A DNA stretch of 64,000 nt from positions 62,001 through 126,000 of the forward strand of contig NZ_JAJNCL010000015.1 of assembly GCF_021025955.1 (NCBI RefSeq), written 5' to 3'. The position numbers and the translations under genes are program-made. Of the stretch, positions 8,463-30,706 are shown in pieces; the first letter of the stretch is position 1; each line of letters begins with the position of its first letter. The notes beneath the pieces are model-generated. The model worked only from the letters and a program-made list of their open reading frames with translations. It was not told the DNA's origin and ran no database searches. Source of the DNA: Rhodococcus qingshengii (GTDB lineage: Bacteria; Actinomycetota; Actinomycetes; Mycobacteriales; Mycobacteriaceae).

Positions 8463-9382
8463 TGGGACTCGAGATTCCGGGATGGTTACAGGCGGTTGCG
8501 TCGGTCGCGGTGGGTAGCGACTGGCCGCAAGGAGACGAAACGGCACTGTGGCGATTGGGGGATGCCTGGTCAGGTGCGGCTGATCGGATCGAGGCTTCGG
8601 CCGCTGCCGGTGATTACGGATTGCAGGCGGTACTGGCATCGATCGACGGTCAAGCCGGCGACTCGTTGTCTCGGTGTTGGTCGGAGGCCGGGGGAGTTGC
8701 GGAGGTCTTCGAGCGGTTGTCCTCTGCTGCAGCCGAACTGGGCCGGTCGTGCACCGATACAGGCACGGACATCGAGTACACCAAACTGTCGATCCTCGCG
8801 GCGCTGAGCGCACTGGCGCTCGAGATTGCCGCCATGGTGGCGGCCGCTGTCCCGACATTGGGTGTCAGTACCGCCGGGGTCGTGGCGGCTGAGGTGGCAA
8901 CAACCCTCACGGTCCGAATGTTGTTGCAGCAATTGTTGATGCGAGTGATCGAGGCCGCGGCAGTGGAAGCTGCGGCAGCCGTCTTCTCCGGTCTCGCCAT
9001 TCAACTGGGTCAGATGTCGATGGATCACCGCCGGTCGATCGACGGTGGCAAGGTCGTGACCGAAGGACGCGACGGTTTCATCAAGGGACTCGCGAACGGA
9101 GGATTGAAGACGACGCCGGATCGTGTCGGGCCGGACCCGAACCCGCTTCCAACCGGTTCGAGGTTGCAGCAAATCGCGCGAGGCGCCTTCGACGACGCGG
9201 TCTCGGGAGCGTCCGCTGCGATCGTGACGAAGGAGGTCACGGGCGGCGACGCCTCACTGACGGACATCACGTCCGGCGCGATCGGTGGCGGGATCGGTTC
9301 CGTCAAAGACGGTCTTGTCGCTCGCAACGAGGACCTGAATGCGGCCGGTCTGAGCCTGACTGCGCTGAACTGGGACTTCTGA
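8462..9382 (+). CDS. T7SS-substrate-like protein with helical N-terminal domain, no visible toxin domain
   Basis: A 306-residue protein beginning MGLEIPGWLQAVASVAVG and holding DWPQGDETALWRLGDAW, the pattern found at the N-terminus of large WXG-type toxins secreted through ESX systems. The middle (about residues 105-190) is Ala/Val-rich and may insert in membranes or form long helices. The C-terminal 60 residues are Gly/Ser/Thr-rich and stop without a recognisable catalytic domain, and no immunity gene follows. It may be a shortened polymorphic toxin or a secreted structural partner; function is unproven. ATG start overlaps the previous stop. Confidence 0.55.
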   Translation: MGLEIPGWLQAVASVAVGSDWPQGDETALWRLGDAWSGAADRIEASAAAGDYGLQAVLASIDGQAGDSLSRCWSEAGGVAEVFERLSSAAAELGRSCTDTGTDIEYTKLSILAALSALALEIAAMVAAAVPTLGVSTAGVVAAEVATTLTVRMLLQQLLMRVIEAAAVEAAAAVFSGLAIQLGQMSMDHRRSIDGGKVVTEGRDGFIKGLANGGLKTTPDRVGPDPNPLPTGSRLQQIARGAFDDAVSGASAAIVTKEVTGGDASLTDITSGAIGGGIGSVKDGLVARNEDLNAAGLSLTALNWDF

Positions 9383-9396: not shown

Positions 9397-9432
9397 CCGT
9401 GGGCTACTCCCGTACCACGGGGTAGCCCACGG
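9397..9432. terminator. Hairpin terminator, ancestral msrB/T7SS convergent terminator
   Basis: CCGTGGGCTAC (9397-9407) pairs with GTAGCCCACGG (9422-9432). It lies between the T7SS-like gene and the orphaned 3' end of msrB, so before integration it probably stopped transcription of msrB from the other side. Confidence 0.75.
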
Positions 9433-9437: not shown

Positions 9438-9482
9438 TTACTCAGCAGGCTTGAGTACCAGCGAGATCGAGTTGATGCAGTA
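9438..9482 (-). pseudogene. msrB: Orphaned original 3' end of msrB
   Basis: On the minus strand these bases read Y C I N S I S L V L K P A E stop, which is the expected C-terminus of MsrB. The rest of msrB starts 11.5 kb away at 21021. The fragment was cut off when the element integrated. Its first 17 bases are the left copy of the integration core. Confidence 0.9.
9466..9482. repeat. attL core
   Basis: The 17-mer ATCGAGTTGATGCAGTA is shared exactly with 21021-21037. On the minus strand it reads Tyr-Cys-Ile-Asn-Ser-Ile, the catalytic-cysteine region of MsrB. The flanks differ immediately outside the 17 bases on both sides, so this is the full shared segment. Confidence 0.92.
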
Positions 9483-9513
9483 GCATTATTTACATATGTC
9501 GTAAGGAGTCTGA

Positions 9514-10857
9514 ATGCCCACGTCAGCAGCAGTTTACGCCCGCATCTCACTGGATCGAGACAATGAGCAGCTCGGCGTATCGAGACAACGGCAAGACTGC
9601 CTAGAGCTTGCGAAGCGGCTTGGTTGGGGCATCGGAGAGGTCTATCTCGACAACTCGATCAGTGCCAGCAAGGACGTACTCAGACCTGAGTACGAACGGA
9701 TGATCGCTGATTTGTCGTCCGGCAAGCGTGATGGACTGATCGTGTACGACTTGGACCGACTCACCCGCAAACCAGCAGAGCTGGAATCGTTCATTGCACT
9801 CGCTGAGAAGGCAGGATTCGCGTTAGCCAATGTCGCTGGCGACGTGGACCTGAGCACGGCAAACGGTCGGATGCTTGCCCGTTTTAAGGGTGCAATTGCT
9901 CGACAGGAGGCTGAACGAATCGGGGAGCGCGTCAGCAGAGCTGCCAAACAACGAGCTGAACAGGGAAAACCGCAGAAGGCTAAGCATCGTCCGTTCGGCT
10001 ACACGGTTGACTACGAAATCGTGCCGGATGAAGCGGAGATGATTCGTCAGGCATATGCGAGAGTCATTGCAGGAGAGAGTATTACGTCGATAATGCGTGA
10101 CTTTCAGGCGAACTTCTCGACTGTCGCAGGTGGCAAATGGTACCGACAGACCGTCAAGAAAATCTTGCAACGACCAGCGAACGCAGGCATTCGGGAGTAC
10201 AAGGGCGAAGAGGTTGGGGTAGGGGACTGGACTCCGATTGTCGATAGGGCGACCTATGACGCTGCAATGGAGACCTTCAGCAAGGCGAGCAAGCCAATGC
10301 CCGACATGGCTAACAAGCACCTACTAAGCGCTATCTGCAAGTGTGGTTTGTGCGGCTTCCCGATGTACGGCAGGCGTAGAGGCAAAGGAAGCACAGCGCA
10401 GTACACCTGCATGCCAACACATGGTGGTTGTGGTCGGATTGCGCGTGCTCAGGAGCCGCTGGACAAGTACATCATCAGCCTGGTTGTCGCGCATCTGGAG
10501 AAGATCGCTCCTGTGGTTGCCGTAGCCAACGAGAACGATGACAAGATCGCTGAAACGCAAAAACGTATTAGTGATCTTCAGAAAGCGTACTCAGATGAAC
10601 AGCTTTCAATGATTGACTTCATGCCGCTTGTGAACGCAGAACGGCAAAAATTGAAGCAGTATCAGAGAAAGGAAGCGAAAGCCGCAACGGTCGCAACCAA
10701 ATCAACCCGAGCGGAACATTTCATAGACGCAAACTTGTCGCAGCAACGAGCAATCATCAAACGGTACATCCGCGATGTAGTCGTAATGCCGACAGGCAGA
10801 GGTTCCCGCAAACTTGACTACGATTGCATCAAGGTCATAAAGAACGAGCGAACATAG
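9514..10857 (+). CDS. int: Large serine recombinase (integrase)
   Basis: 447 residues, near the small end of the large-serine-integrase range. The N-terminal resolvase domain (1-150) starts AAVYARISLDRD, with the nucleophilic serine at about residue 12 and the arginine-rich DRLTRKPAELESF segment following. A recombinase domain (about 160-260) contains HRPFGYTVDYEIVPDE. The zinc ribbon near 275-310 shows CKCGLCGFPMYG and a second CxxxxxGGCG pair. A coiled-coil follows (about 345-400, ISDLQKAYSDEQ). ATG 9514 has a strong AAGGAG site. It starts only 31 bases from the attL core, so its own promoter must lie across the junction. It should catalyse attP x attB integration in msrB; excision would need a directionality factor, not identified. 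Confidence 0.95.
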   Translation: MPTSAAVYARISLDRDNEQLGVSRQRQDCLELAKRLGWGIGEVYLDNSISASKDVLRPEYERMIADLSSGKRDGLIVYDLDRLTRKPAELESFIALAEKAGFALANVAGDVDLSTANGRMLARFKGAIARQEAERIGERVSRAAKQRAEQGKPQKAKHRPFGYTVDYEIVPDEAEMIRQAYARVIAGESITSIMRDFQANFSTVAGGKWYRQTVKKILQRPANAGIREYKGEEVGVGDWTPIVDRATYDAAMETFSKASKPMPDMANKHLLSAICKCGLCGFPMYGRRRGKGSTAQYTCMPTHGGCGRIARAQEPLDKYIISLVVAHLEKIAPVVAVANENDDKIAETQKRISDLQKAYSDEQLSMIDFMPLVNAERQKLKQYQRKEAKAATVATKSTRAEHFIDANLSQQRAIIKRYIRDVVVMPTGRGSRKLDYDCIKVIKNERT

Positions 10858-10861
10858 AAAA

Positions 10862-10886
10862 GCCGGGTAGCGAATGCCTACCCGGC
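10862..10886. terminator. Terminator after integrase
   Basis: GCCGGGTAG (10862-10870) pairs with CTACCCGGC (10878-10886). It separates the integrase from the converging minus-strand small genes and can serve both. Confidence 0.75.
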
Positions 10887-10892
10887 CGATTT

Positions 10893-11000
10893 CTACTTAC
10901 TCGCAAATATCATGTCTAGAAATCTGATGTCATCTTCGGTCGTGTCAGAAGCGTCTTCCATGTACTTTGCGACTGCTGTTGCAAGGTCGTAGTTTGCCAA
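10893..11000 (-). CDS. Small protein, 35 residues
   Basis: TTG start; sequence begins MANYDLATAVAKYMEDASD and is acidic and probably helical. It is the last of three overlapping or adjoining minus-strand reading frames. The start lies three bases from the end of the previous frame, with a GGGAGA site about a dozen bases upstream. No family recognised. Position next to the integrase makes a directionality factor or small regulator conceivable, but nothing in the sequence shows it. Confidence 0.5.
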   Translation of the reverse strand: MANYDLATAVAKYMEDASDTTEDDIRFLDMIFASK

Positions 11001-11003
11001 CGA

Positions 11004-11162
11004 TCATTCGGTCTCCCTTCTGTAGAATCGGTGCCAGACCTTGTGTCTGACGATGCTACGAGTGCCCTGAATTAGGGCGTGCTCCCTTCCGTCGTTAACG
11101 AAATTGGCTGTCGGGTCAATCGGTACCCGGCAGAAAATCTGATTACTCTGAGCGCTTCTCAC
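11004..11162 (-). CDS. Small protein, 52 residues
   Basis: GTG start inside the end of the preceding frame (20-base overlap). The protein has a well-behaved composition: IFCRVPIDPTANFVNDG in the first half and a basic, aromatic end RHKVWHRFYRRETE that could bind nucleic acid. No family recognised. The overlap with its upstream neighbour and the three-base gap to the next frame indicate one short operon. Confidence 0.55.
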   Translation of the reverse strand: MRSAQSNQIFCRVPIDPTANFVNDGREHALIQGTRSIVRHKVWHRFYRRETE

Positions 11163-11253
11163 GCGGGGTGTTGTACCTCAACGTGGCTAGGAACTCTTTC
11201 TTGATTCGTTCCGCCCATGCCTTGAACCTGGTGTTCTCGTCTGACTTGCTCAT
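11143..11253 (-). CDS. Small basic protein, 36 residues
   Basis: ATG start with a clear GGAGAGG ribosome site. Begins MSKSDENTRFKAWAERIKKE and is rich in Lys/Arg/Glu, likely one helix. First gene of the three-gene minus-strand set 11253-10893, with a promoter-like sequence about 110 bases upstream. Function unknown. Confidence 0.55.
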   Translation of the reverse strand: MSKSDENTRFKAWAERIKKEFLATLRYNTPREKRSE

Positions 11254-11364
11254 TTGTCGTGCCTCTCCTTGGTTGTTGTGCTGCGCTCTGGCAAAATTAA
11301 ACGTCGTTCTGGTCTCTCCGTGCCGATCTGGGTCTCCGATTAATCTGAGACGCTTAGCTATCCG

Positions 11365-11394
11365 ATTCTAGGTATTCTCCTATCGTTGTTGTAA
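11365..11394 (-). promoter_or_regulatory. Promoter-like sequence for the minus-strand small genes
   Basis: On the minus strand TTACAA (11389-11394) and TAGAAT (11365-11370) are separated by 18 bases, close to the vegetative sigma consensus. It would drive the three small genes ending at 10893. Confidence 0.45.
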
Positions 11395-11403
11395 CATCAC
11401 GTC

Positions 11404-11601
11404 ATGGATCGTCTTTTCAACTTCCTAGATAGTTTCTTACTATTCCTCTTCTGGGGATTTGTGAATGAAACCATAGACGGAAGACGATTGCAAGCTTTCT
11501 GTACCGCCGAAACCTGTAAGCCTCTGACCTGCGACGATGCTAACTTTAGATATAGTTATGTTCGAGTAAGTCATGATCTTATTTGGATTCTTGACGATTG
11601 A
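11404..11601 (+). CDS. Possible small membrane protein, 65 residues
   Basis: Open frame beginning MDRLFNFLDSFLLFLFWGFV, one hydrophobic segment at residues 6-20, followed by a polar tail with two cysteines. There is no convincing ribosome site before the ATG, and the frame has no known relatives that I recognise. It sits divergently to the three minus-strand small genes. Could be a chance frame. Confidence 0.3.
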   Translation: MDRLFNFLDSFLLFLFWGFVNETIDGRRLQAFCTAETCKPLTCDDANFRYSYVRVSHDLIWILDD

Positions 11602-11685
11602 TCGCTAACAGCGGTCCGTGAACCGGAATGGTATAATTGAGCAGTGCAGGTGGAACTGCATAAGTTTGTATAAGATCATACCCAG

Positions 11686-11728
11686 GAAGACCGCTCAGTT
11701 ACGTTGTCAAAGATGCTGAGCGGTCTTC
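11686..11728. terminator. Exact 13-bp hairpin
   Basis: GAAGACCGCTCAG pairs perfectly with CTGAGCGGTCTTC over a 17-base loop. The run after it (TGCCTTGATTTTC) is only weakly T-rich, so it may be a terminator or a structured RNA. Confidence 0.55.
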
Positions 11729-11823
11729 TGCCTTGATTTTCAAGAGTCAAGGTGTCATACTCAAACAAGCGGTCAGCGTTAGCTAGCAGCCCCAAGATCC
11801 TATTTAAGTTCTTGTTAGCCTAT

Positions 11824-11852
11824 TAGACAATCCGAGCACTACCGCGTATAAT
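11824..11852 (+). promoter_or_regulatory. Promoter candidate before the 340-residue protein gene
   Basis: TAGACA (11824-11829), 17 bases, TATAAT (11847-11852). The transcript would run through the hairpin at 11935-11968 before reaching the gene at 11992, leaving room for attenuation. Confidence 0.5.
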
Positions 11853-11934
11853 TAGTACCAGAGATTCATTCAACCAACCGCTAATTGGTAAGGAGCACTC
11901 AGAAACTTTCTTTTTGGAATAAGAAAATACCTGG

Positions 11935-11968
11935 ACACTCGATCAGTAGCGGCTGATCGGGTGTTTTT
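11935..11968 (+). terminator. Intrinsic terminator or attenuator just upstream of 11992
   Basis: ACACTCGATCAG (11935-11946) pairs with CTGATCGGGTGT (11953-11964), one G-T pair, followed by TTTT. It is placed between the likely promoter and the next gene, so some read-through is needed for that gene to be expressed. Confidence 0.65.
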
Positions 11969-11991
11969 CTATATTCCAACAAAGAAAGTAA

Positions 11992-13014
11992 GTGAAATGT
12001 TACATGAATTACAGCAACACTAGCACCACCCAACTCAATATTGATTGGTCCAATCCTGAGTTCGTCAGGGACGTCTTCGAAAGATCAGATGAACATCTAC
12101 ACCTCAGTCCACAGGATAGAATCAACGCTCTTGCTCACGCACCAGAACTCACTATTGAGGATCTGATTGATGTACTAGCCAACGATTCTATTGATGAAGA
12201 GTACAAGACAGCTCTTCTGAATCTATCTAGAGAGTCTTCAGGTAGCCCGCTTCTGACGGGTATTAGAAGGAACTTAGATACTGTGGGACACCTAAAATAC
12301 GGGTACACACCAAGACACACGATTCAGATAAATCTCAAAGGATCGAAGTTCGACGTTGAACTACCAGAGGTAGAAGTCTGGAAGAACAACAGTTCGTACG
12401 TCACACGGATGCAAAACTGTGACAAAAAGGATCTGGCAAAGACTCTGTACAAATGTGCGTTGTACACGAAGCGTTATGCGATGGATACGGGTAGCTTGGT
12501 TCAGATTGCGCATGATAGAGGTCTTGACTTTAATCGGGCACTACGAACCAGCCATGCAGCTGGTCAGAAAGCGCATCTAGTCAAGACGATTGACGCAGAG
12601 GCAAACGTGTTCTTCGAGAATGCCGTGGAGCACTGCAACTCGTTCAAGCAAGTCCAAATCCTGATTGCGTTGTACACAGAAGCCTGCACGTACACGACGA
12701 TGCAGCCCGTCTTCTGCAAGAAAAGGTGTTCGGACAGTCTGGGAGTGGATCGCAAAGTCATCATCAGGCTCTTCGCAAGGTTGGAGAAGATCGGTCTCTT
12801 GATGGAATCGCCGGAGACGATGAAAAAGTATGACTATGCGGCCGGTATGCCGTTGTCTAATCCCAGAATCGTTAATATGGATCTGACGCAGCACGGTCGT
12901 TGGTGGAACTTGGACGAAAAGCCTGGTCCTGACCGTTCACCGGAGAAGAAAGCTCTTAAGCAGCGCAGGACAGAAGTTTTGGCCGGGAATGGATATTGGA
13001 AAGAAAGTAAATGA
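11992..13014 (+). CDS. Unknown element protein with C-terminal winged-helix-like segment (replication initiator candidate)
   Basis: 340 residues from GTG 11992 (ATG 12004 is also possible). The first 80 residues are acidic and helical. The middle holds a basic region (KKDLAKTLYKCALYTKRYAM). Near residues 240-275 there is KKRCSDSLGVDRKVIIRLFA followed by RLEKIGLLM, which looks like a helix-turn-helix with the wing-type RLEKIGLL continuation. A basic tail follows (KKALKQRRTEV). By position between integrase and head genes it may be a replication initiator or transcription regulator. No family is recognised with certainty. Confidence 0.5.
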   Translation: MKCYMNYSNTSTTQLNIDWSNPEFVRDVFERSDEHLHLSPQDRINALAHAPELTIEDLIDVLANDSIDEEYKTALLNLSRESSGSPLLTGIRRNLDTVGHLKYGYTPRHTIQINLKGSKFDVELPEVEVWKNNSSYVTRMQNCDKKDLAKTLYKCALYTKRYAMDTGSLVQIAHDRGLDFNRALRTSHAAGQKAHLVKTIDAEANVFFENAVEHCNSFKQVQILIALYTEACTYTTMQPVFCKKRCSDSLGVDRKVIIRLFARLEKIGLLMESPETMKKYDYAAGMPLSNPRIVNMDLTQHGRWWNLDEKPGPDRSPEKKALKQRRTEVLAGNGYWKESK

Positions 13015-13054
13015 CTGATATTGGCCCGATCCTAGGAGAAAGGAGGGACGAAAT

Positions 13055-13228
13055 TTGACAGAAGTACGTAAATACGACCAACAGTCAGCCAAAGACGCCG
13101 AGAGTGTGAGCAAGATTTTCGAACAGATCGAAATATTACTGACAGAGGCAGTTGAGCTAGGCGCGTCGAACCAGAGGCTGAAGCTTGGTTTACAGCACAT
13201 CTATTCGAAATTTACGCGACAGAGATAG
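13055..13228 (+). CDS. Small helical protein, 57 residues
   Basis: TTG start eight bases after a very strong site AGGAGGG (13041-13047 region). It reads MTEVRKYDQQSAKDAESVSK and continues as a probable amphipathic helix to a basic end (IYSKFTRQR). It follows the 340-residue gene by 40 bases and is itself followed by a terminator hairpin, so the two share a transcript. Function unknown. Confidence 0.55.
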   Translation: MTEVRKYDQQSAKDAESVSKIFEQIEILLTEAVELGASNQRLKLGLQHIYSKFTRQR

Positions 13229-13234
13229 ATGACA

Positions 13235-13271
13235 GTAGGGGATAGGAGTTAGACTGATTCCTATCTCCTAC
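13235..13271. terminator. Hairpin after the 57-residue gene
   Basis: GTAGGGGATAGGA (13235-13247) pairs with TCCTATCTCCTAC (13259-13271) with one G-T pair. It ends the 11992-13228 transcript. Confidence 0.65.
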
Positions 13272-13389
13272 CGTTCTCAAGTACCTCCATTCAGATAGTG
13301 TGACGGGATTAGACGAGCAACAGCCGGCGGCATGGGTAAATGTGTACCTAGATTAATCCAATCGCTTAGATTCGATATTACAAGAATAT

Positions 13390-13418
13390 TTGGATTAGCG
13401 GGATATGGTGCGTATAAT
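13390..13418 (+). promoter_or_regulatory. Promoter of the small-gene/HNH operon
   Basis: TTGGAT (13390-13395), 17 bases, TATAAT (13413-13418), a near-consensus vegetative promoter. It precedes the run of overlapping small genes from 13475. Confidence 0.6.
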
Positions 13419-13425
13419 GGTAAAC

Positions 13426-13464
13426 AGAGACACTAACGATTGATTCGTTAAATCCAATGTCTCT
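13426..13464 (+). promoter_or_regulatory. Nested leader hairpin ending at the ribosome site of the 26-residue gene
   Basis: Outer stem AGAGACA (13426-13432)/TGTCTCT (13458-13464); inner stem TAACGA (13434-13439)/TCGTTA (13445-13450). The 3' side ends one base before GGAGA (13466-13470), so folding could influence access to the ribosome site. Regulation is inference. Confidence 0.45.
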
Positions 13465-13474
13465 TGGAGATAGT

Positions 13475-13555
13475 ATGAATGATTACGAAGAAATCGTATG
13501 TCTAAGCTGCAATGAACGTGATTGTGAACATGATAATAAGTTGGTGCTCGGATGA
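13475..13555 (+). CDS. Cys-rich microprotein, 26 residues
   Basis: ATG five bases after GGAGA. The sequence contains VCLSCNERDCEH: a CxxC pair followed by C-x-H, enough for one small zinc site. The TGA overlaps the next ATG (ATGA), a sign that it is translated. Function unknown. Confidence 0.5.
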   Translation: MNDYEEIVCLSCNERDCEHDNKLVLG

Positions 13556-13737
13556 CCGATTTTGAGTTTGTAGAAGTTGAGTCGGAATTAAATTCAGTCA
13601 ACGAGATTGAAGAAAAGTTCGTTGACGAGCAGATCGAAGCGAAAGATGTTGCGGCAGAAGAGAAGTCAGAAGCGCAGCAGTTAGAAGAGGCTAAGAAGTA
13701 TTTCAAAAACCTCTTTGCGAATATGGGTGCGAAGTGA
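13552..13737 (+). CDS. Acidic small protein, 61 residues
   Basis: Very Glu-rich helical protein (MTDFEFVEVESELNSVNEIE) ending in AKKYFKNLFANMGAK. It overlaps genes on both sides by four bases, in the manner of phage early genes. DNA-mimic or partner roles are conceivable for such an acidic protein but not shown. Confidence 0.5.
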   Translation: MTDFEFVEVESELNSVNEIEEKFVDEQIEAKDVAAEEKSEAQQLEEAKKYFKNLFANMGAK

Positions 13738-13844
13738 ACGAGTTTGAAGATTTTGATTTCGTAGCTATCGCGGTAGAAGCAAAAAGAGTCAGGCAAGAGC
13801 TTGAAGCGTTGTACGACACCAGAGGTCAGCGGATTGCAGATTAA
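13734..13844 (+). CDS. Small protein, 36 residues
   Basis: GTG start in a GTGA overlap with the previous stop. Begins MNEFEDFDFVAIAVEAKRVR, probably a helix. The next gene starts eight bases later at 13852 or inside this frame at TTG 13801. Function unknown. Confidence 0.45.
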   Translation: MNEFEDFDFVAIAVEAKRVRQELEALYDTRGQRIAD

Positions 13845-13851
13845 ATATGAG

Positions 13852-14178
13852 ATGGAGGGGGAGTGTTGGCGCTACGTGGGTCCGTACAGCAGTGACGGTT
13901 ATCCGCTAATCAAGCTAGACGGTAAACGTCAGCTACTTCGCCGGGTGTTGTATCAAAATTTGATTGAGTCAATTCCCTATGGAAAATCAATCGGCAACAC
14001 TTGCCGACACAAATGGTGTATTCGGATAGAGCATTTGCAAATATATGCAGCGAGAACACACTGTTTGTACGGTCACGAATTGACTGATGACAATGTTTAC
14101 AGACACAAGGGGCAAACCTGTAAACAGTGCAGAAAAGTTCAACGTCAGAAACGTAAAGCGAAAAAGTTTAATGAATGA
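13852..14178 (+). CDS. HNH-type homing-endonuclease-like protein with altered active site, plus zinc ribbon
   Basis: About 108 residues from ATG 13852. It follows the HNH_3 pattern: GYPLIKLDGKRQLLRRVLY, then IGNTCRHKWCIRIEHL, then a C-terminal zinc ribbon CLYGHELTDDN...CKQC. Compared with the next gene, the first His of the motif is Asn and the Asn before the last His is Glu, so nuclease activity is doubtful. TTG 13801 would add 17 residues. The stop overlaps the next gene's ATG. Confidence 0.6.
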   Translation: MEGECWRYVGPYSSDGYPLIKLDGKRQLLRRVLYQNLIESIPYGKSIGNTCRHKWCIRIEHLQIYAARTHCLYGHELTDDNVYRHKGQTCKQCRKVQRQKRKAKKFNE

Positions 14179-14617
14179 TAAAGTAATAGGTAAGATGCAA
14201 GAATGTAGTGACTCAGAAGCTAGTTCAGATGAAGACAAATATTCGAGGATTCTTGAGTACGTTGTCAACAAGAATAATTGCCATATATTCAAGCTTTCTG
14301 CACGAGACCGTAACGGGTATGCAGTAGTAAAGATTGACGGCAAGAATTGGTATGCACACAAATATGTGTACGAACAGAAGCATGGTCCGGTTCCAGCCGG
14401 TATGGAAGTAATGCATTTGTGCAAGAATCAACGTGATTGCATCTCTATAAATCATCTACGTGCAGGTACACATGCTGAGAATATGGCTCAGATTCCAGAA
14501 GATAAAAAGGAATTTTGCGCGGCAGGGCATGAATTAAATAGATCCAACAGCTTCAAATTCAACAACAATCTGCATTGCAAAATATGTAGAGCGTTGAAGA
14601 GAGTTCAAGATGCCTAG
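14171..14617 (+). CDS. HNH endonuclease (HNH_3) with C-terminal zinc ribbon
   Basis: 148 residues from ATG 14171, which overlaps the end of the previous gene; the frame is open further upstream but that part is antisense-like to family. Core: GYAVVKIDGKNWYAHKYVYE then MHLCKNQRDCISINHLRAG, keeping His, Asn and His of the HNH motif, then a zinc ribbon CAAGHELNRSN...CKIC. Phage-type nucleases of this form can act as homing enzymes or aid packaging; here location ahead of the terminase genes permits either. Paralogue of the preceding gene. Confidence 0.7.
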   Translation: MNDKVIGKMQECSDSEASSDEDKYSRILEYVVNKNNCHIFKLSARDRNGYAVVKIDGKNWYAHKYVYEQKHGPVPAGMEVMHLCKNQRDCISINHLRAGTHAENMAQIPEDKKEFCAAGHELNRSNSFKFNNNLHCKICRALKRVQDA

Positions 14618-14748
14618 CTATTGCGTGAACAAGCATGAACAGACTAGGTCCAAACACGTACTGGTTTGCAGGTACACTGATCTGCCGGATTTGTAGAAAA
14701 GATCGAACGGAACAGAGAAAGCTAGAAAGTCAAGGCAGAAAGTCTTGA
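14610..14748 (+). pseudogene. Frameshifted zinc-ribbon gene, third member of the HNH/zinc-ribbon set
   Basis: ATG 14610 gives MPSYCVNKHEQTRSK and then leaves frame, ending at 14696 after 28 residues. Shifting one base near 14655 restores NTYWFAGTLICRICRKDR and a basic tail to TGA 14748. The combined pattern C-x3-H ... C-x2-C with basic end matches the zinc ribbons closing the two preceding proteins. A single indel therefore explains it; a sequencing error is also possible. Confidence 0.55.
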
Positions 14749-14891
14749 TTAGGGTATTGCGAATTCGCGCCTGTACTTAAAAGTAGTTGTTTTCTTTTTA
14801 CACAACTCTGGCAGACGGACTCAAAGTCAAATGAAAACAAGATTCAAGAAAGGGATAGAAATGAAAGTCATAATCAAAAAGCAGGTGCCGA

Positions 14892-15326
14892 ATGGCGAAG
14901 TACGAAGAGGCTGAACGAAGAGCATTCGCTGAACTGGCGGGTGATGTTGGATTAAGTGCTGCCAGAAGGGAATTGGGCTATCCATCGAGCTGGGCAACTG
15001 GCAAAAAGTGGACAGAGGAATTCGGCATAGAGATTGAACTCGATGAGCTGAAGGCGAAAGCCAGTGCATACAATAATTGGTACAAAGACTCCGAACTGCT
15101 GATCGCACAGCAAGACCTGATTGCCAGAGCACGAGACCTGATGGACTCCAAGACTCTCAATCCGGCAGAGCTAGAGAAGCTTGGTCAGACGATCAAGCGC
15201 GCAACTGAGATGATCCGTGTCATCGACGGCAAGGCCAACGTCTACACAGCCAAGGAAGACACGACAGAGCTTGAAGCCTTGCAGATGTACGACGAGTTCC
15301 AGCGAGCCAGAGCTGATGATGCGTGA
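14892..15326 (+). CDS. Phage terminase small subunit
   Basis: 144 residues. Expected to bind the packaging start site and hand DNA to the large subunit. The N-terminus (EEAERRAFAELAGDVGLSAA) is a helix-turn-helix-like DNA-binding segment, followed by a helical oligomerisation part (AQQDLIARARDLMDSK) and an acidic end. ATG 14892 has an AGCAGG site. Its stop overlaps the large-subunit GTG (GTGA). Confidence 0.7.
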   Translation: MAKYEEAERRAFAELAGDVGLSAARRELGYPSSWATGKKWTEEFGIEIELDELKAKASAYNNWYKDSELLIAQQDLIARARDLMDSKTLNPAELEKLGQTIKRATEMIRVIDGKANVYTAKEDTTELEALQMYDEFQRARADDA

Positions 15327-16129
15327 ATCCGTTGGAGTACATCGGTCAGTTTCCGCGTGAACTGATTGCATCGTCCGAAGGTCGAAAACTGCTGACCAGG
15401 CAAGACCCTCTGTTGTTCAGTGTGGTCTACCTGAGTCACAGCATCAGGTTCGAAGGTCAAGAACCATCGTTCAGTCAGTTCCATCTTGACCTGGCTGAGT
15501 ATGCTAAGTCTTGGATGCAGACCGATTCCCAACGAGACTGCTGGATTGCTCCGCGTGAAGCTGGCAAGTCTCAGTGGTTGTTCAAGATTCTGCCGTTGTG
15601 GGCAGCAAGTCATGGTCACCTGAAGTTCATTGCAGCCTTCTCGGATGCTGGCTCACAAGCGACTGATCATCTTGATTCGTTCAAGTTCGAACTAGATCAC
15701 AACAAGCTGTTGCGCAAAGACTATCCAGAGTTGTGCAAGCCGATGATGCGCGGTGCAGTGAAGAGGTATGTCAGTCAGAGCAACGAGCAGATTCAGCAAG
15801 CCAATGGATTCAGTTTCTCGGCAAAAGGCATTGATGCAAAATCGCTGGGTATGAAGATCGGTGATCAAAGACCTGATCTGATTTTGTTGGATGATATTGA
15901 ACCAACTGAATCCAACTACTCAGTCAATGAAGCAGAGAAGCGCAAGAGAACAATGCTTGATGGAATCTTCTATCTGGGATCAAGAACGCGATCAACAAGC
16001 TGGTCAGTTCGATCCGGCCAAGCCAGAGACGTTGATCAGCCCGTACAGGGAGTACGTCAGAGCTATGGCGTCAGTGACGAGCACACCGCTGAGCTACTTC
16101 GAGAACACACAGACGAACGTGTCAGGTGA
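15323..16129 (+). pseudogene. Terminase large subunit, ATPase part only, joined out of frame to portal sequence
   Basis: The frame codes a terminase ATPase domain: Walker A region DCWIAPREAGKSQWLFK near residue 70-86 and Walker B PDLILLDDIEP near residue 190. Family homology ends near MLDGIFYLG (about nt 15985). The remaining 50 residues (SRTRSTSWSVRSG...) are portal DNA read in the wrong frame. The C-terminal RNase-H-like nuclease domain is absent, so headful cutting cannot be done by this protein alone. An ATPase-only motor is conceivable but the abrupt junction points to an internal deletion. Confidence 0.75.
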
Positions 16130-16460
16130 AGCACTCAGAGCTGCCGAAGCGCCGCTAGTCAAGAAAGTCCGATTGCGTCAGCTTGCCATTGGGTCAGCTC
16201 TGCGCAAGATGTTCCTGTTCGTGTTGAAGCTCAATCAGATAGACGAAGATGTACAGCTTCAGTGGCGACAGATCGAATCAATCGACACGTCAGAAACCTG
16301 GGACATTATCAAAAAGAAGCGTGATGCTGGTCTGCCAGCGGAACAAATTTGGCTTGAACATGGGTACGACACAGCTCTTATTGAGCAGTGGAAACGAGCT
16401 GGTCTACTGGATCAGCCAGCAACAACAAATATTACAGAAATTGGAGATGAAGCAGCATGA
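16002..16460 (+). pseudogene. Phage portal protein, C-terminal fragment
   Basis: From GQFDPAKPETLISPYREYV onward the frame matches the C-terminal third of SPP1/HK97-like siphophage portals (TPLSYFENTQTNVSGEALRA, then helical crown). The N-terminal two thirds are missing. The frame is open upstream to 15891, but there it reads through terL DNA. An in-frame ATG at 16065 could allow a shorter product. The stop overlaps the scaffold start (ATGA). Confidence 0.75.
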
Positions 16461-16864
16461 ACGAAGACACAAACGAGCTAGATCAGATGAGAGAAGCGCT
16501 GAAGAACGCAAACGGTGAATCAGCCGCGCATAGGCACAAGGTCAAAGAGCTTGAACAGCAGATTGAAGCATTGTCGGAAACGGCAGAGCGTGTGACCGCA
16601 AAGTACCGTCAGGCTCAGATTGGCGCTGAGCTTGAACGCAACGGAATCACGAACACGAAGATCACGAAGTTGCTCGATCTGGATCAGATTGAGCTGGATG
16701 ACGAAGGCAATGTGACCGGACTTGATGAGCAAATTCAATCAGTGAAATCAGAGTTTCCTGAATTGTTTGAAACGAAGCGAGCAGCGCCAAAGGTTGATGC
16801 AGCCGACAAGCCAGCGATCAAGCGTCAGATAACAAGCGCTGAACGCCTAATCAACGGACGTTGA
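16457..16864 (+). CDS. Capsid scaffold protein
   Basis: 135 residues with a long charged coiled-coil first half (ANGESAAHRHKVKELEQQIE) and a second half ending in a basic helix-turn-helix-like tail (KRQITSAERLINGR), as in phage scaffold proteins of the GP20 type. Expected to guide capsid assembly inside the procapsid. Position between portal and capsid genes agrees. Frame intact; ATG overlaps the portal stop. Confidence 0.7.
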   Translation: MNEDTNELDQMREALKNANGESAAHRHKVKELEQQIEALSETAERVTAKYRQAQIGAELERNGITNTKITKLLDLDQIELDDEGNVTGLDEQIQSVKSEFPELFETKRAAPKVDAADKPAIKRQITSAERLINGR

Positions 16865-16999
16865 GCGGCATTGTTCCTATTTATGATAAAATAGACCTAA
16901 TATTAACCGAGATGGTTTGATTGCGAAGCGAGATGTTAAGCAATATTTAGCAGTAAGCGTAACGGCTTTAACGAAATTTAAGAGAAATGAAGTGTATGA

Positions 17000-17878
17000 A
17001 GAATTTCAGCAATTAATGCAAGTAGTTGGGTAAACGAGGAACTTGGTTCTTCTGTTCTAACTACGATTACAACAAACTCTGCGGCAGAAGCATTTGCCCG
17101 TAGAGAGAATATGGATTCGGACGCTTTGCGCGTTCCGCGTCTTACGGACGTAGATGTATCGGTAATTCCAATGTCAGGCGCATATCCAGAAGATGCGGCG
17201 AACCTTGACACTGTATTGCTAGTGCTAGCAAAGTTCGGTGGACGAGTACTTGTTCCATACGAACAGCTAGACGATTCCAACATTGCGGTTCTTACTGAGC
17301 TGCAAAAGAGCTGGGCGAGAAGCTATGCAGCAAAGATTGACAATGCAGTATTCGGAACTACTGGTACCGAAAATGGTCAATCAGTTCCATTTACAAGTGT
17401 TTACAAATCTGTTGGTTCGGCAGTAATCAAGACTGCTGGTCCTGTGTCGTATGCACATCTTAGTGCAACGCTGGGCAAAGCTGAGAATGGTGGATATTTC
17501 AGTGACCCTGACACAATCATCGTTGCTCATATTTCATTGAAGGAATCGCTTCGCAACATCGTTGACGACAACAATCGTCCGTTGTTCATTGATTCGATTC
17601 CTGGGGTACAGCCTTCAACGCTGTTTGGCTATCAGATTCAGTTCAGCGCTGGAGCGAAGACCAGTGCAACGAACGTAGTGAATCCAACTGGTAATCCTCT
17701 GTTGATCGTTGGTAACAGAAACCACTTGATCCTGGGTGTTGGTTCTGGTCCTGAGTCCAAGCTTTCCGAAGAGGCGGGCTATTCAACTGATGAGATTCAT
17801 TTGAAGATGCGAGCACGTAGAGCCTTCGCTGTTGGACGAGCGAATGCCTTTGGCGTCCTTGAGGTTACAGGAGCGTAA
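17000..17878 (+). CDS. HK97-fold major capsid protein, N-terminally shortened
   Basis: The frame is open from 17000 but the first standard start is ATG 17111, giving 255 residues; reading from 17000 adds SSWVNEELGSSVLTTITTN, which looks like true family sequence. Core features: PRLTDVDVSVIPMSGAYPED, the E-loop region, and a C-terminal beta part with MRARRAFAVGRANAFGVL. The usual N-terminal arm and any delta domain are missing, and the 135 bases upstream hold unrelated AT-rich DNA. Either a rare start is used or the gene is damaged at its 5' end. Confidence 0.7.
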   Translation, partial: RISAINASSWVNEELGSSVLTTITTNSAAEAFARRENMDSDALRVPRLTDVDVSVIPMSGAYPEDAANLDTVLLVLAKFGGRVLVPYEQLDDSNIAVLTELQKSWARSYAAKIDNAVFGTTGTENGQSVPFTSVYKSVGSAVIKTAGPVSYAHLSATLGKAENGGYFSDPDTIIVAHISLKESLRNIVDDNNRPLFIDSIPGVQPSTLFGYQIQFSAGAKTSATNVVNPTGNPLLIVGNRNHLILGVGSGPESKLSEEAGYSTDEIHLKMRARRAFAVGRANAFGVLEVTGA

Positions 17879-17886
17879 GCAATTCG

Positions 17887-17929
17887 GAACAGCTCAGCGT
17901 TCAGTCGAATGTTGGGCTGTTCTGTTTTT
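17887..17929 (+). terminator. Terminator after the capsid gene
   Basis: GAACAGC (17887-17893) pairs with GCTGTTC (17916-17922), followed by TGTTTTT. It would give excess capsid transcript relative to the connector genes downstream. Confidence 0.7.
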
Positions 17930-17932
17930 CAT

Positions 17933-18085
17933 ATGGAAGATTACGAATACGAGTTCACAATGACGTTGCCGACTATCGGTGACTATTTTCAGACACGTCA
18001 GTTTCAGCTTGGATTCTCAGTTTCCGAGCAGAACTTGACGCTAGGTCGATTGTTCGCTGTTGCAAGAATCAGTGATGCAACGTGA
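17933..18085 (+). CDS. Small virion-module protein, 50 residues
   Basis: ATG 17933 gives MEDYEYEFTMTLPTIGDYFQ and on to TGA 18085, which overlaps the next GTG. Composition is ordinary and the tight overlap supports translation. No ribosome site stands out. Possibly a connector-associated small protein; family not recognised. Confidence 0.45.
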   Translation: MEDYEYEFTMTLPTIGDYFQTRQFQLGFSVSEQNLTLGRLFAVARISDAT

Positions 18086-18417
18086 GAAATTTCTACGTAG
18101 GTCAGAATCCGCATGGTTCAGTCTTGTTCAAAATTGTTGACGAACGTAAGCAGCCCGTAGACGTGATGATGTATTACACGGCAAAGGTGTTCATTCGTAG
18201 ACCTGACGGTTCAGTGTATTCGGATGGGTATGCAGTTCCGATTGCAAATCCGTATCACGCTGTTGACTACACGTTCGGTTCAACGAGTCCATTCACGATG
18301 ACTGGTGAGTATCAGATACAGATCAAGTTGAACCGCAACAGCGGCGAACCAGGCGATAAGTTCGACTATACGGATATCATTGCTATCGACGTTATAGAAA
18401 GTTTGGAGGGAAGTTAG
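18082..18417 (+). CDS. Phage structural protein, beta-rich, 111 residues
   Basis: GTG start overlapping the previous gene. The protein has alternating beta segments (GSVLFKIVDERKQPVDVMMY) and reads like an Ig-like or baseplate/neck adaptor domain of siphophages. It is placed between the capsid gene and the connector genes. Exact role not established. Confidence 0.5.
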   Translation: MRNFYVGQNPHGSVLFKIVDERKQPVDVMMYYTAKVFIRRPDGSVYSDGYAVPIANPYHAVDYTFGSTSPFTMTGEYQIQIKLNRNSGEPGDKFDYTDIIAIDVIESLEGS

Positions 18418-18798
18418 ATGTTAGCAACAGATTCAGATGTTCTGGATATGACTGGATATACAGTCAATGATCAGCAGATCAGACAAGCTCAGGGAATTGT
18501 TGAAGTATGTGCAGGCAGACCCGAAAGTCTTGTGACGAACGAAACAGACAAGCACTGGCTCAAGTATGCCGTGTGTTGGCAGTCAGCCTATTTGGACAAC
18601 TCAGACGTGTTCGCACAAGCGAATGTGGAACAGGTGAAGCAGGACAAGACCACCGTTACCTATGGAGAGAAGACGTATGCCGTCAGTCCGTTGGTGGTTG
18701 AAGCGGTCAAGCAGCTCAGTTGGAACAAGTCTCGTTCGATAATGACCGGATCGAACACAGTCAAGGCGAATCGTATGCCTGATTGGTGGTACTGGTGA
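18418..18798 (+). CDS. Head-tail connector protein (gp6-like)
   Basis: 126 residues, mainly helical, starting MLATDSDVLDMTGYTVNDQQ; the pattern of an N-terminal helical bundle detecting 'sequence position' codons, with ALAV-type helices and the basic C-terminus, fits the siphophage head-tail connector/adaptor that docks under the portal. It begins immediately after the previous stop and its own stop overlaps the next ATG (TGATG). Confidence 0.55.
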   Translation: MLATDSDVLDMTGYTVNDQQIRQAQGIVEVCAGRPESLVTNETDKHWLKYAVCWQSAYLDNSDVFAQANVEQVKQDKTTVTYGEKTYAVSPLVVEAVKQLSWNKSRSIMTGSNTVKANRMPDWWYW

Positions 18799-19226
18799 TG
18801 CCGAGATTCATTGTGCGAACGTGGCCTAGCCTGGTGGACATTTACACCCAGCGAGTGACGTTTGATCCTGAAACAGGCTCAGCCGAGCGAAAGTGGAACT
18901 ATCTCGATCCTGAGACAGTGCCGTGCAACGTCGTAGCGCTGAATCCAGAAGACAGCCTTGAGCAGTTCGGCGCGGAATATACAAAAAAGAAGTTCGTCAA
19001 GCTTGAGATTCCAACAGGTCAGTTCGAACTGAGCCAGCAAGCCGGGAATCTGCGCAGCAAAGACGGAAAACAGCGGTACTACGATCATTTGATCGACAAC
19101 GAGTTCTATCCAGAAGTGTTCAACATCAGCAACATTGGCACTCGTATCGACTTGAACGGTCAGATTGACTGCTATGAGCTGTATCTAGAACTGTTCGATG
19201 ACAGTATTACTCAGATTGCAAGATGA
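18798..19226 (+). CDS. Head-closure/neck protein
   Basis: 142 residues from ATG 18798. It begins MPRFIVRTWPSLVDIYTQRV and includes a beta-barrel-like run (KFVKLEIPTGQFELSQQAGN), in keeping with head-closure proteins that follow the connector. It is the last head-module gene; a terminator follows and no tail gene is present before attR. Confidence 0.5.
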   Translation: MPRFIVRTWPSLVDIYTQRVTFDPETGSAERKWNYLDPETVPCNVVALNPEDSLEQFGAEYTKKKFVKLEIPTGQFELSQQAGNLRSKDGKQRYYDHLIDNEFYPEVFNISNIGTRIDLNGQIDCYELYLELFDDSITQIAR

Positions 19227-19230
19227 CAGA

Positions 19231-19266
19231 AAAAGGGCTACAAGCAATTCGGCTTGTAGCCCTTTT
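19231..19266. terminator. Bidirectional terminator ending the head module
   Basis: AAAAGGGCTACAAGC (19231-19245) pairs exactly with GCTTGTAGCCCTTTT (19252-19266). A/T runs on both sides let it stop both the head operon and the converging cargo genes. Confidence 0.9.
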
Positions 19267-19333
19267 CTTACCCTTATTCCACTTATACGCGAAGGAGGAT
19301 TGTGCGTAATAAGTCTATTATACCAGCTTGCGC

Positions 19334-20236
19334 CTACTTCTGCTTTGCGATAGCACGAGCGTAGAGAACGACGTTCTTGGCCCATGCACTGTACGCAAAA
19401 TTTAAGGGCGGCGGTTCGTTCGTACTGCGCTGAGATGTTAAGGCGCGCACTCCGTCTTTCTTGTTGAATAGATCGTCGAACTCAACTATTATTTGACAAG
19501 CATCCCGCATGTCAGGGTACATCTTGGGAAGTATCCGCTCGTTCGCGTCTTTGGCCGCTTTAAATGCTTCGTAAGCCAGCGTGAGAAGATCCGGTTTTTG
19601 TTCGGGTAACGCTTTTAACAGTTCTCGATACTTGTCATCCATCTTCTTGTCAAGGTCAGTCATTGCTTTTATGTCAACCTTGGGAGTGCTGATAGCTATC
19701 GTTTCTCCCTTCTCGTCCAGCCAGGCGCGGGCGCTGATTGAGATTGCTTCCATTGTGTGGTGAACCATTGTATTTCTCAAACGATAGAGAATCCTATACT
19801 CGGAACTCTTTTCGAAGAGCTTGTTGAGAATCTTCTGAACGTCTTTATGTTGCTTGCTATCTTCGCCGTACAGTTGTTTAATCTCTTCGTATGTATGTTC
19901 CTGGTGGTAATGCAGAGCTGAACAAAATGCGAGTGCCGCACTCCGCATCCGGATTCCCATGCGAACAATATCGTCTGGCTGTGAGGCATCCAGTTTCCCT
20001 CCTTTGAGTTCTTCCATGTCAGCTTGTATTGCCCGACCCAAATCACCAATTGTCTTTGTCATGTAGGTAAAGACGTTAACGTTTAGAATCTTGTTTATTT
20101 CGTGATACGCATCTCCGTATCTTTTGAAATCTGATTCGCTAATCTTCTGAATCACTTCGAAATCAGCGTCGGAGTCAATATCGGGATTATTATGAATCAG
20201 CAGTGCTGAGTAAAACTCTTCCATATTTGATGTCAT
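19334..20236 (-). CDS. Cargo protein with R-x4-H (HEPN-like) motif
   Basis: 300 residues, soluble, largely helical. The segment YRLRNTMVHHTME carries R154-N-T-M-V-H159, the R-x4-H arrangement of HEPN ribonucleases, set in a predicted helix after a Lys/Glu-rich helix pair. A second acidic/basic helical region fills residues 180-290. It lies with the upstream membrane-protein gene in the slot between head genes and attR, where phages and satellites often carry anti-phage or lysogenic-conversion genes. An RNase-type defence role is inference; the motif alone is weak evidence. Confidence 0.5.
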   Translation of the reverse strand: MTSNMEEFYSALLIHNNPDIDSDADFEVIQKISESDFKRYGDAYHEINKILNVNVFTYMTKTIGDLGRAIQADMEELKGGKLDASQPDDIVRMGIRMRSAALAFCSALHYHQEHTYEEIKQLYGEDSKQHKDVQKILNKLFEKSSEYRILYRLRNTMVHHTMEAISISARAWLDEKGETIAISTPKVDIKAMTDLDKKMDDKYRELLKALPEQKPDLLTLAYEAFKAAKDANERILPKMYPDMRDACQIIVEFDDLFNKKDGVRALTSQRSTNEPPPLNFAYSAWAKNVVLYARAIAKQK

Positions 20237-20272
20237 TGTTTTTCTCTCGTTTGGGTGAAGGCATATTTGGAA

Positions 20273-20809
20273 TTATTCGGGGGTGATAGCTTTGGTGCTT
20301 GAAGTCAAACTCTCGGATTGCTTCTGTTTCAGTTCTGACTGAGCTGCCCTAAGAAGTTCATGATGCAGTGTGGTTAGATCAATCTTCACCATCGAGATTG
20401 TGTTCTGGACGGTTTCGCGCTCGCTGTCTACATACTCCATGTGCGCGTCTCGAACTTGCCATAGTTCAGCAACGCTCTGGCCGTGTGCAAGATAGATCTC
20501 TTTCGCGCACCTCTCTAGCTCGGTGAATGGTGCGCAAATCAGAATTTGGTTGTATTCAGTCTGAATAGTGCGGTATAGGTCATTCGCTGTCTCCTCGCGG
20601 GCTTGCTGATCGGTGTCATCTGTCCAGCGTTTGATGACGTCGGACCTTTGTCGCGATAGCTCAAGCAGGTTGGCCACCGCTTTAGTGATGGTGGTTCGCT
20701 TCCAGTTAGTCAGGTCGCGCTTGCTGGCCCAAACGAGATTGACTGCAAGGCTCAGTAGGGCCAAAACCGCAGCTCCGACCGAAATCCAGTTTGAAGTGTC
20801 CATCGCCAC
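20273..20809 (-). CDS. Membrane-anchored helical protein, partner of the HEPN-like gene
   Basis: 178 residues with an N-terminal membrane segment (WISVGAAVLALLSLAVNLVW, about residues 8-27) and a long cytoplasmic helical part with repeated charged heptads. GTG 20809 or ATG 20803 can start it. It is transcribed first, 36 bases before the HEPN-like gene, so the pair likely forms an operon. No family recognised. A membrane sensor or effector paired with a nuclease-like protein would fit an abortive-infection system, but this is conjecture. Confidence 0.5.
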   Translation of the reverse strand: MAMDTSNWISVGAAVLALLSLAVNLVWASKRDLTNWKRTTITKAVANLLELSRQRSDVIKRWTDDTDQQAREETANDLYRTIQTEYNQILICAPFTELERCAKEIYLAHGQSVAELWQVRDAHMEYVDSERETVQNTISMVKIDLTTLHHELLRAAQSELKQKQSESLTSSTKAITPE

Positions 20810-20880
20810 ATCATGCCAGGTAGTTAAGGCTTTTCACTCGACGTATTTATGAGTATGCAAAGACGCCGAACACTCGTTTC

Positions 20881-20928
20881 CACGCACTGCGTGGTGTGCA
20901 TGCACTGCGTGTGTCCGCTGGCTAGCGG
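20881..20928. repeat. Cluster of short inverted and direct repeats near attR
   Basis: CACGCA-C-TGCGTG (20881-20893) is palindromic; GCACTGCGTG recurs at 20884-20893 and 20902-20911; CCGCT/AGCGG forms another inverted repeat (20915-20928). Could be regulator or recombination-factor sites for the element. Confidence 0.45.
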
Positions 20929-20948
20929 TAGGGCTAGACGGATCGCCA

Positions 20949-20982
20949 AAAGAGGTCCAGGTCTGTTGACCTGGACCTCTTT
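20949..20982. terminator. Element-borne terminator for hybrid msrB
   Basis: AAAGAGGTCCAGGTC (20949-20963) pairs exactly with GACCTGGACCTCTTT (20968-20982) around TGTT. It lies inside the element just past the msrB stop and replaces the terminator now stranded at 9397-9432. Confidence 0.9.
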
Positions 20983-20992
20983 CGTTTCTAAC

Positions 20993-21424
20993 TCACTCCG
21001 ACTTATGTAAAACTAATGCTATCGAGTTGATGCAGTACCGCTGATCGGTCGGCGTCGGGTATCCCTCGCCCTCGAAGACGTGGCCCAGGTGGCTGTGGCA
21101 CTTCTTGCAGATGACCTCGACGCGGCGCATCCCCAGTGAGCTGTCTTCCTTCAGGATCACGGCATCCGAATCCGCCGGATCGAAGAAGGACGGCCACCCG
21201 CAGTGCGATTCGAACTTCTCGGTGCTGCGGAACAGTTCGGCTCCGCACGCCCGGCAGGAGTAAACACCTTCCGTGGTGGTGTCGGTGTATTCGCCGACGA
21301 AGGGGCGTTCGGTGCCGGCTTGGCGCAGAACCGCGAACTCCTCCGGACTCAGCTTTTCGCGCCACTCGCTCTCGGTGTACGTGACCTCAGGTGTGCTGTC
21401 GATGCCATCGTGTGAAGAACTCAT
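20993..21424 (-). CDS. msrB: Peptide-methionine (R)-S-oxide reductase, C-terminus rewritten by the element
   Basis: 143 residues. Reduces methionine-R-sulfoxide in proteins using a C-terminal-side cysteine. Two zinc pairs are present (CRAC and CKKC), and the catalytic motif RYCINS lies about ten residues from the end. The last residues, IALVLHKSE, are coded by the element (20993-21020); the displaced host version reads ISLVLKPAE. Length and all catalytic residues are kept, so the enzyme should work. The 17-bp attR core covers the catalytic Cys codon. Confidence 0.96.
   Translation of the reverse strand: MSSSHDGIDSTPEVTYTESEWREKLSPEEFAVLRQAGTERPFVGEYTDTTTEGVYSCRACGAELFRSTEKFESHCGWPSFFDPADSDAVILKEDSSLGMRRVEVICKKCHSHLGHVFEGEGYPTPTDQRYCINSIALVLHKSE
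21021..21037. repeat. attR core
   Basis: Second copy of ATCGAGTTGATGCAGTA, inside the msrB coding sequence. Host DNA lies to its right (the rest of msrB) and element DNA to its left. Confidence 0.92.
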
Positions 21425-30350: not shown

Positions 30351-30366
30351 GGGTTCTGGAGAAAAA

Positions 30367-30442: not shown

Positions 30443-30534
30443 ATGAGCAATGAACTCCGTTACCGGAACTCAGTACTTTTCTAACTTATCAGACCTGCAA
30501 GCAGGCCTTGACCATCAGGCCCGAAGGCCTGACG

Positions 30535-30609: not shown

Positions 30610-30610
30610 G

Positions 30611-30681: not shown

Positions 30682-30706
30682 GTAAAAGGTTGAGTCACAC
30701 CTCTCG

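Follow-up and report, generated by a model that had tools for sequence, protein, structure and literature searches.

A predicted capsid-encoding satellite inserted at the active-site codons of msrB in Rhodococcus qingshengii supplies the gene with a new in-frame 3' end

A 64,000-nucleotide stretch of the Rhodococcus qingshengii genome (contig NZ_JAJNCL010000015.1, positions 62,001 to 126,000; hereafter, the window) carries, in the 3' part of the methionine sulfoxide reductase gene msrB, an element of ~11.55 kb that is bounded by a perfect 17-bp repeat and encodes a serine integrase. The element provides an in-frame counterpart for the gene end that it displaces, as in gene-restoring insertions of the kind known from e14 at icd. 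In the explanation that we favour, with a probability of roughly 0.85, a satellite of the MulchRoom type would have used its own integrase, a large serine integrase, to enter msrB at the codons that surround the catalytic cysteine. The right arm of the element's attachment site (attP) would combine an integrase half-site with the last MsrB residues, followed by a stop codon and then by a hairpin; integration would swap the host 3' end for the element-borne one and leave msrB with an unbroken frame and its original upstream region. A previous sequence-only reading of this DNA had proposed that the integrase targets the catalytic-cysteine codons of msrB and leaves the gene functional, and that targeting so conserved a stretch would give the element a wide host range. 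Insertion at the active-site codons and the re-supplied C-terminus are borne out, because of the empty sites, the second element at the same site and the pattern of synonymous changes described below; the cysteine codon itself and the wide host range did not fare as well. The features of the site are as follows.

9466..9482, minus strand: left junction with the 17-bp core, element arm to the right and displaced host 3' end to the left (exact repeat; empty sites in L025-L028)
21021..21037, minus strand: right junction, 17-bp core inside msrB, coding for Tyr-Cys-Ile-Asn-Ser-Ile
20993..21424, minus strand: msrB, chimeric, with the host part at ~21029-21424 and the element-supplied 3' end at ~20993-21028
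9438..9465, minus strand: displaced native msrB 3' end (SLVLKPAE*)
20947..20984, minus strand: element-supplied hairpin, likely terminator, directly after the new msrB stop, with 17 uninterrupted pairs
9397..9432, minus strand: displaced native hairpin, which follows msrB in the empty-site genome L025
21028..21029, minus strand: CA, the dinucleotide at which crossover is predicted from dyad symmetry (third base of Ile132 and first of Asn133), with its counterpart at 9473-9474

The direct repeat ATCGAGTTGATGCAGTA is exact over 17 bp at 9466-9482 and 21021-21037, with a spacing of 11,555, and it is the sole 17-mer common to both 1-kb end zones; after first-order Markov shuffles the longest word in common was 13 (n=300). 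The guanine plus cytosine (GC) content is 47% between the core copies versus 63% in the rest of the window. On the minus strand the core reads TAC TGC ATC AAC TCG AT, corresponding to Tyr-Cys-Ile-Asn-Ser-Ile, and the exact repeat and its translation confirm what had been claimed for both ends of the element.

The msrB gene encodes 143 amino acids, with a Pfam SelR match at residues 25-139, and is the only msrB match in the carrying genome. Residue Cys131 (codon 21032-21034), which we take to be the catalytic cysteine of MsrB, aligns with the C of RYCINS or RYCMNS in the three solved MsrB sequences that have printed alignments. Continuing past the core, translation yields ISLVLKPAE* for the displaced host end (9438-9465) and IALVLHKSE* for the element end, the two being of equal length; reading both ends thus supports the proposal that the one replaces the other with the length of MsrB kept. 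The tails agree at 14 of 30 nucleotides and at 5 of 9 residues, a level of residue agreement reached by random sequence of the element's composition in 8e-5 of trials. Across 26 aligned MsrBs, the window's included, T124 to S134, L137 and L139 are invariant, and the invariant residues that come from the element are N133, S134, L137 and L139. The chimeric frame is full-length; msrB appears to remain complete after integration, and its product is presumably a working enzyme. An AlphaFold model of MsrB computed from the single sequence was too poor to be used (predicted local distance difference test score, 40).

Joining the flanks at the repeat gives a sequence of 945 bp that aligns in one piece with four congeners (L025-L028) at 90–96% identity, with 0, 1, 3 and 31 gap positions. 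The sequence-only reading had made its case depend on whether the flanks are contiguous in genomes lacking the element, and in these four they are contiguous over all 945 bp. Among the 25 congener msrB loci that could be read at the site (L025-L028 among them) none has the element tail; a 26th locus (L050) ends before the site and is therefore outside the 25-locus counts. The genome set contains one genome per species, and msrB is present in 27 of the 28 genus genomes, in one of the 27 as a fragment only; the sole genome without a match is 74% complete.

A second element occupies the same site. In L052, an IMG/VR record of 19,639 bp, both element ends lie on one contig with the same core (positions 107 and 19517). 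Over 147 bp around its msrB junction L052 is 94.6% identical to the window, and the integrases are 76% identical. The L052 tail, IALVLHKSD*, differs from the window tail at 6 of 30 nucleotides, of which three changes are synonymous, one converts E to D and two fall in the stop codon (TGA to TAG); among random sets of six substitutions, only 0.2% preserve the stop while changing no more than one residue. Past the stop, 13 of 60 nucleotides agree, which is near chance. L052 is otherwise distinct and tailed phage-like, with another terminase, a major tail protein, a tape measure and minor tail proteins; besides the integrase, the proteins it has in common with the window element are a replication (rep)-like protein (33%) and a right-end protein (28%), and no others (frames of at least 50 codons). 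Further serine-integrase insertions at the 3' end of msrB had been suggested as a check on the initial proposal, and L052 is one such, at the same core and with its own coding tail. Searched for the 17-mer, viral contigs returned eight stretches, the msrB reading being found in the two L052 ends and not in the other six, and L052 was also the sole match in a scan for the element tail.

Directly downstream of the new stop codon the element supplies a hairpin, which was absent from the sequence-only reading and is an addition to it. The sequence at 20947-20984 folds with -35.8 kcal/mol (z -7.3), which none of 200 shuffles equalled, and a consensus terminator scan there gives one site, on the plus strand only, with 0.7 expected. 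The native hairpin at 9397-9432 folds with -33.3 kcal/mol (z -4.8). It would appear that the swap takes in the coding end together with its stop and the probable terminator, with transcription ending at the hairpin.

The 17-bp identity alone is insufficient to place the cut within the core. The best 2-bp dyad centre of attP is the CA at core positions 9-10 (15/25), and in a gapped alignment of the window attP arms (2-nucleotide gap) 0 of 5000 shuffles were as good. The crossover is thus likely on this CA, between Ile132 and Asn133 and just past the Cys-Ile codons, in which case the Cys codon is probably still of host origin and MsrB is element-encoded from Asn133 on. The proposed targeting of the catalytic-cysteine codons is consequently retained in so far as the core spans them, and modified in that attP symmetry would leave the Cys codon with the host. 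The distance from the core to the integrase start codon is 31 bp, and attP adjoins the integrase gene.

An informative contrast comes from the next nearest integrase (52% identical), which belongs to a satellite in genome G015; this satellite is of the same family as the window element. Its terminase subunits, portal, capsid and adaptor are 49–69% identical to those in the window over the matched pieces, with 40% for the scaffold and 42% for the stopper. The G015 insert of 20.7 kb (L080 9442 to L079 14178) lies in a LysE-family gene at an NPKAVVFM motif, has a core of 7 bp, and its site is empty in all three congeners searched. The LysE-family gene, an open frame of 226 codons, is truncated near codon 147 and ends in PTHK*. 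Since the G015 satellite truncates its target with a 7-bp core, a long core with rescue is not general to these integrases, and rescue accompanies the msrB attachment module, not the integrase family. The two satellites, of one family and with related integrases, form a natural comparison pair in which one breaks its target and the other gives its target a new end in frame.

Selection on the host gene appears to have shaped attP, and the window integrase is the probable agent of the insertion. Were this instead a plain long-core insertion, the MsrB-like tail would be a by-product of attP resembling attB, the host attachment site, with no part played by selection on the gene. The attP of a serine integrase is described as ~45-50 bp long (PMC5311408), so a half-site would span most of the tail, and the right arm in the window also appears to be an inverted repeat of the non-coding left arm. 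Nucleotide identity is, however, not forced, as the tails agree at no more than 14 of 30 positions and yet agree in residues; the two elements at msrB differ synonymously and place the stop alike with different stop codons, and the 52% identical integrase manages with a core of 7 bp. On this evidence we regard a by-product as rather unlikely. It is decidedly improbable that the window holds a dead remnant, a grounded element whose junctions keep the frame intact because they have not yet decayed. The ~2.27 kb missing across the genes for the terminase large subunit (TerL) and portal, in comparison with the near relative L053, would fit such a remnant, but the integrase is a full frame of 447 amino acids, both cores are perfect, the other element at this site keeps the same coding tail, and a deletion of packaging genes has no bearing on integration.

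Compatible with the favoured explanation, to which it would add a history, is a capture of the tail from the msrB of another species, via imprecise excision or gene conversion between junctions, with later adaptation as a half-site. The L052 right junction and the native msrB end of L029 share 33 nucleotides at 91%, and a pattern covering both is present in the window's own genome and in 2 of 400 other family genomes (G021 and G004). When 29 native MsrB ends are compared, those of L029, L031 and L030 come nearest to both element tails: beyond the core they match the L052 tail at 19, 18 and 17 of 28 nucleotides (others at most 15), and the window tail at 17, 17 and 16 of 28 (others at most 13). 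The match is short, however, the pattern was written after the sequences that it then found had been seen, and the match would fit either direction of transfer, host to element or the reverse; we place the chance of capture a little below even. An element remnant beside msrB in L029-L031, suspected from a lower GC content, was discarded, there being no element-gene match and only the 33-nucleotide tail and short core matches.

A number of observations weigh against satellite integration with an attP arm that doubles as the MsrB end. N133 and S134 fall inside the 17-bp core, hence their retention says little, and the element tail departs from two nearly invariant residues of MsrB (A in place of S136, K in place of P141). 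In attB the CA dyad scores 11/25, tied second, the best centre (12) being elsewhere. Gapped arm symmetry beyond all shuffles is seen for the window element only: the L052 attP arms have their best alignment out of register (84 of 5000 shuffles) and the attB arms show no alignment (1546 of 5000). The first ~20 nucleotides of the tail could also be conserved for integrase binding. Neither hairpin is called as a minus-strand terminator by the consensus scans, and the hairpin of L052 is weak (z -1.4, with 18 of 200 shuffles doing as well). Just two elements inserted in msrB were found, and L053 is without both element ends. Satellite integration with a double-purpose attP arm is still the explanation that we favour, and we see about equal chances for and against its further extension: that the right arm of attP began as the 3' end of a host gene and became a half-site, that a module of integrase gene, attP and tail has moved between the satellite in the window and the tailed phage-like L052, and that the active-site codons of a widespread repair enzyme serve as a low-cost landing site. 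The arrangement indicates that an attachment site can bear two constraints at once.

Searches for related insertions and for further sites gave a narrower picture than the wide host range first envisaged. The exact 17-mer occurs in only 7 of the 25 congener msrB loci, which does not bear out that expectation; the MsrB protein motif is near-invariant, and its DNA is not. With two positions left open, the core is found in 149 of 397 genomes, representing 46 of the 85 genera of the order. Among these 397 genomes none other than the window's own has two core copies on one contig; G110 and G166 were rejected as msrB insertions, their two core copies lying on different contigs and corresponding to two msrB paralogues in each. 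Relatives of the integrase in genome contigs were not returned by a single protein query, and an alignment query gave six distant ones (25–31%). Phage records yielded 1174 relatives, every one below 60% identity, plasmids one record at E <=1e-60 (34%), and the family genomes 3 of 401 at E <=1e-90, the window's own included. In the short flanks of 21 integrase loci (L002-L021 and L024) the only msrB was the window's own, and L074, with an integrase 45% identical, has no credible msrB match. In the Moraxella phage Mcat15 (L072 2493-2976) a complete unannotated msrB lies ~60 bp from the annotated left attachment site (attL); as the gene is complete, this is another arrangement. The window offers an integrase candidate with a site in a gene present in 27 of the 28 genus genomes, and use of that site may not cost the host its msrB.

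The remaining features of the element are listed below in the order in which they occur.

9514..10857, plus strand: large serine integrase, 447 amino acids (Pfam Resolvase, Recombinase, Zn_ribbon_recom; PHROG integrase, E 1.9e-91)
11992..13014, plus strand: putative replication initiation protein (no Pfam or PHROG match of its own; 33% to an L052 protein)
14087..14617, plus strand: HNH endonuclease (Pfam HNH_3)
14892..15326, plus strand: terminase small subunit (TerS; 44% to MulchRoom gene 1; no Pfam or PHROG match)
15323..15985, plus strand: N-terminal part of TerL, cut by a deletion (PHROG terminase large subunit; comparison with L053)
15983..16460, plus strand: C-terminal part of the portal protein, following the deletion in another frame (Pfam SPP1_portal; PHROG portal)
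16457..16864, plus strand: scaffold protein (Pfam Phage_scaffold)
17111..17878, plus strand: major capsid protein (47% to MulchRoom, 36% to MiniFlayer)
18418..19226, plus strand: head-to-tail adaptor (18418-18798) and stopper (18783-19226), 42% and 35% to MulchRoom genes 6 and 7
19334..20236, minus strand: cargo protein without assigned family (no Pfam match above cut-off; no PADLOC or PHROG match)
20273..20809, minus strand: right-end protein (28% to the L052 protein at the same end, 18622-19434; 30%, weak, to G015; no Pfam or PADLOC match)

The Resolvase, Recombinase and zinc-ribbon domains are found in one integrase protein, all three above the Pfam cut-off. The L052 homologue of the rep-like protein matches replication initiation PHROGs weakly (E 1.5e-4). 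The gene order is integrase, rep-like, HNH, TerS, TerL, portal, scaffold, capsid, adaptor and stopper, and the block from TerS to the stopper matches MulchRoom by sequence, the window TerL and portal being present as fragments only. In comparison to L053, the window copy is missing ~2.27 kb (L053 6009-8283) with the junction at 15983-15985, leaving TerL and portal fragmentary. No tail or lysis genes were seen among the open reading frames scanned, not every one of which was run against every library. Judged by its genes, the element appears to be a capsid-encoding satellite of the MulchRoom type, with a terminase-portal deletion in the window copy.

Several further observations concern individual genes. 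Similarity to the MulchRoom capsid runs in frame 5' of 17111 (17000-17110), and 17111 may not be the true start or there may be an N-terminal change. The right-end protein is one of three proteins common to both msrB elements and may carry a membrane anchor, as read from its hydrophobic start. The TerL of L053 (5347-7374; 675 amino acids) contains an unusual Ser/Thr/Asn-rich stretch of ~200 residues between two conserved parts, and that of G015 is split at this same Ser-rich stretch by ~4.3 kb (L079 3544-7850); the insert looks like a transposon, with two predicted tyrosine-recombinase-like genes. Rfam gave no intron match in the terminase genes of L079, L053 or L052. Outside the element, the product of the adjoining host gene at 8273-9382 has a domain of the WXG100 type (Pfam WXG100_2); where the site is empty, this gene and msrB converge. 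Six clustered tRNA genes (30276-31145), ~9 kb away from the element, do not serve as its integration site.

Among known systems, MulchRoom and MiniFlayer are described as satellites that encode capsid and packaging genes, and MulchRoom, for which its authors report matches in a Rhodococcus genome, appears to borrow the tail of its helper (PMC10690885). Both resemble the window element in the order TerS, TerL, portal, scaffold, capsid and adaptor, with similarity in each, and MulchRoom also in the stopper. They are satellites of Streptomyces phages. The integrase of MulchRoom is reported to be of the tyrosine type (PMC10690885), in contrast to the serine type of the window element. As MiniFlayer has no annotated integrase, a tyrosine-integrase lysogeny module is not common to the group.

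Rescue of a gene end is already known from other elements; the msrB site, and its combination with such rescue, were not found described. The literature search returned no msrB or methionine sulfoxide reductase attB for a serine integrase, with most subscription journals and all supplementary tables outside its scope, and a previously listed msrB attB may exist. Phage-inducible chromosomal island (PICI)-like elements with serine integrases are reported from mycobacteria, in an article whose main text makes no mention of msr or sulfoxide (PMC10654092). In Streptomyces, the attB of phiJoe in SCO2603 is presented as coding, near the gene end, and used by the phage and by smaller elements with an integrase 68% identical (PMC5311408). 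The likeness to msrB lies in a coding attB near a gene end that serves a phage and smaller elements; the account given of that site describes no re-supplied C-terminus (PMC5311408).

The insertion at msrB is most readily compared with elements that complete or alter the 3' part of a conserved gene. The integrase of e14 is of the tyrosine type, whereas that of the window is a serine integrase; the Ccr recombinases are large serine recombinases, and with them the last codons of rlmH are restored. According to the available description, e14 inserts in the 3' part of icd in E. coli and provides the 3' terminal codons, such that the gene stays complete (PMC6379469). As at msrB, a conserved enzyme gene is entered in its 3' part and completed by the element, but 163 bp of the icd 3' end are stated to be separated (PMC6379469), compared with ~11 codons at the active-site cysteine in the window. 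Ccr recombinases are described as inserting the staphylococcal cassette chromosome SCCmec at the 3' end of rlmH (orfX), with an attB of 15 bp (PMC10018568). What is shared is again a conserved host gene entered at its 3' end, although the element type is unrelated and the attB lies in orfX and not in the active-site codons of MsrB. In a survey of streptococcal integrative and conjugative elements, all 29 serine-integrase insertions are said to disrupt the target gene, and those at rumA reportedly exchange the 3' part for element sequence, with frame and length changed (PMC4701971). These insertions resemble the one described here in being site-specific within widespread protein genes and, at rumA, in the exchange of the 3' part; they differ in that the msrB end in the window is replaced in frame and at equal length.

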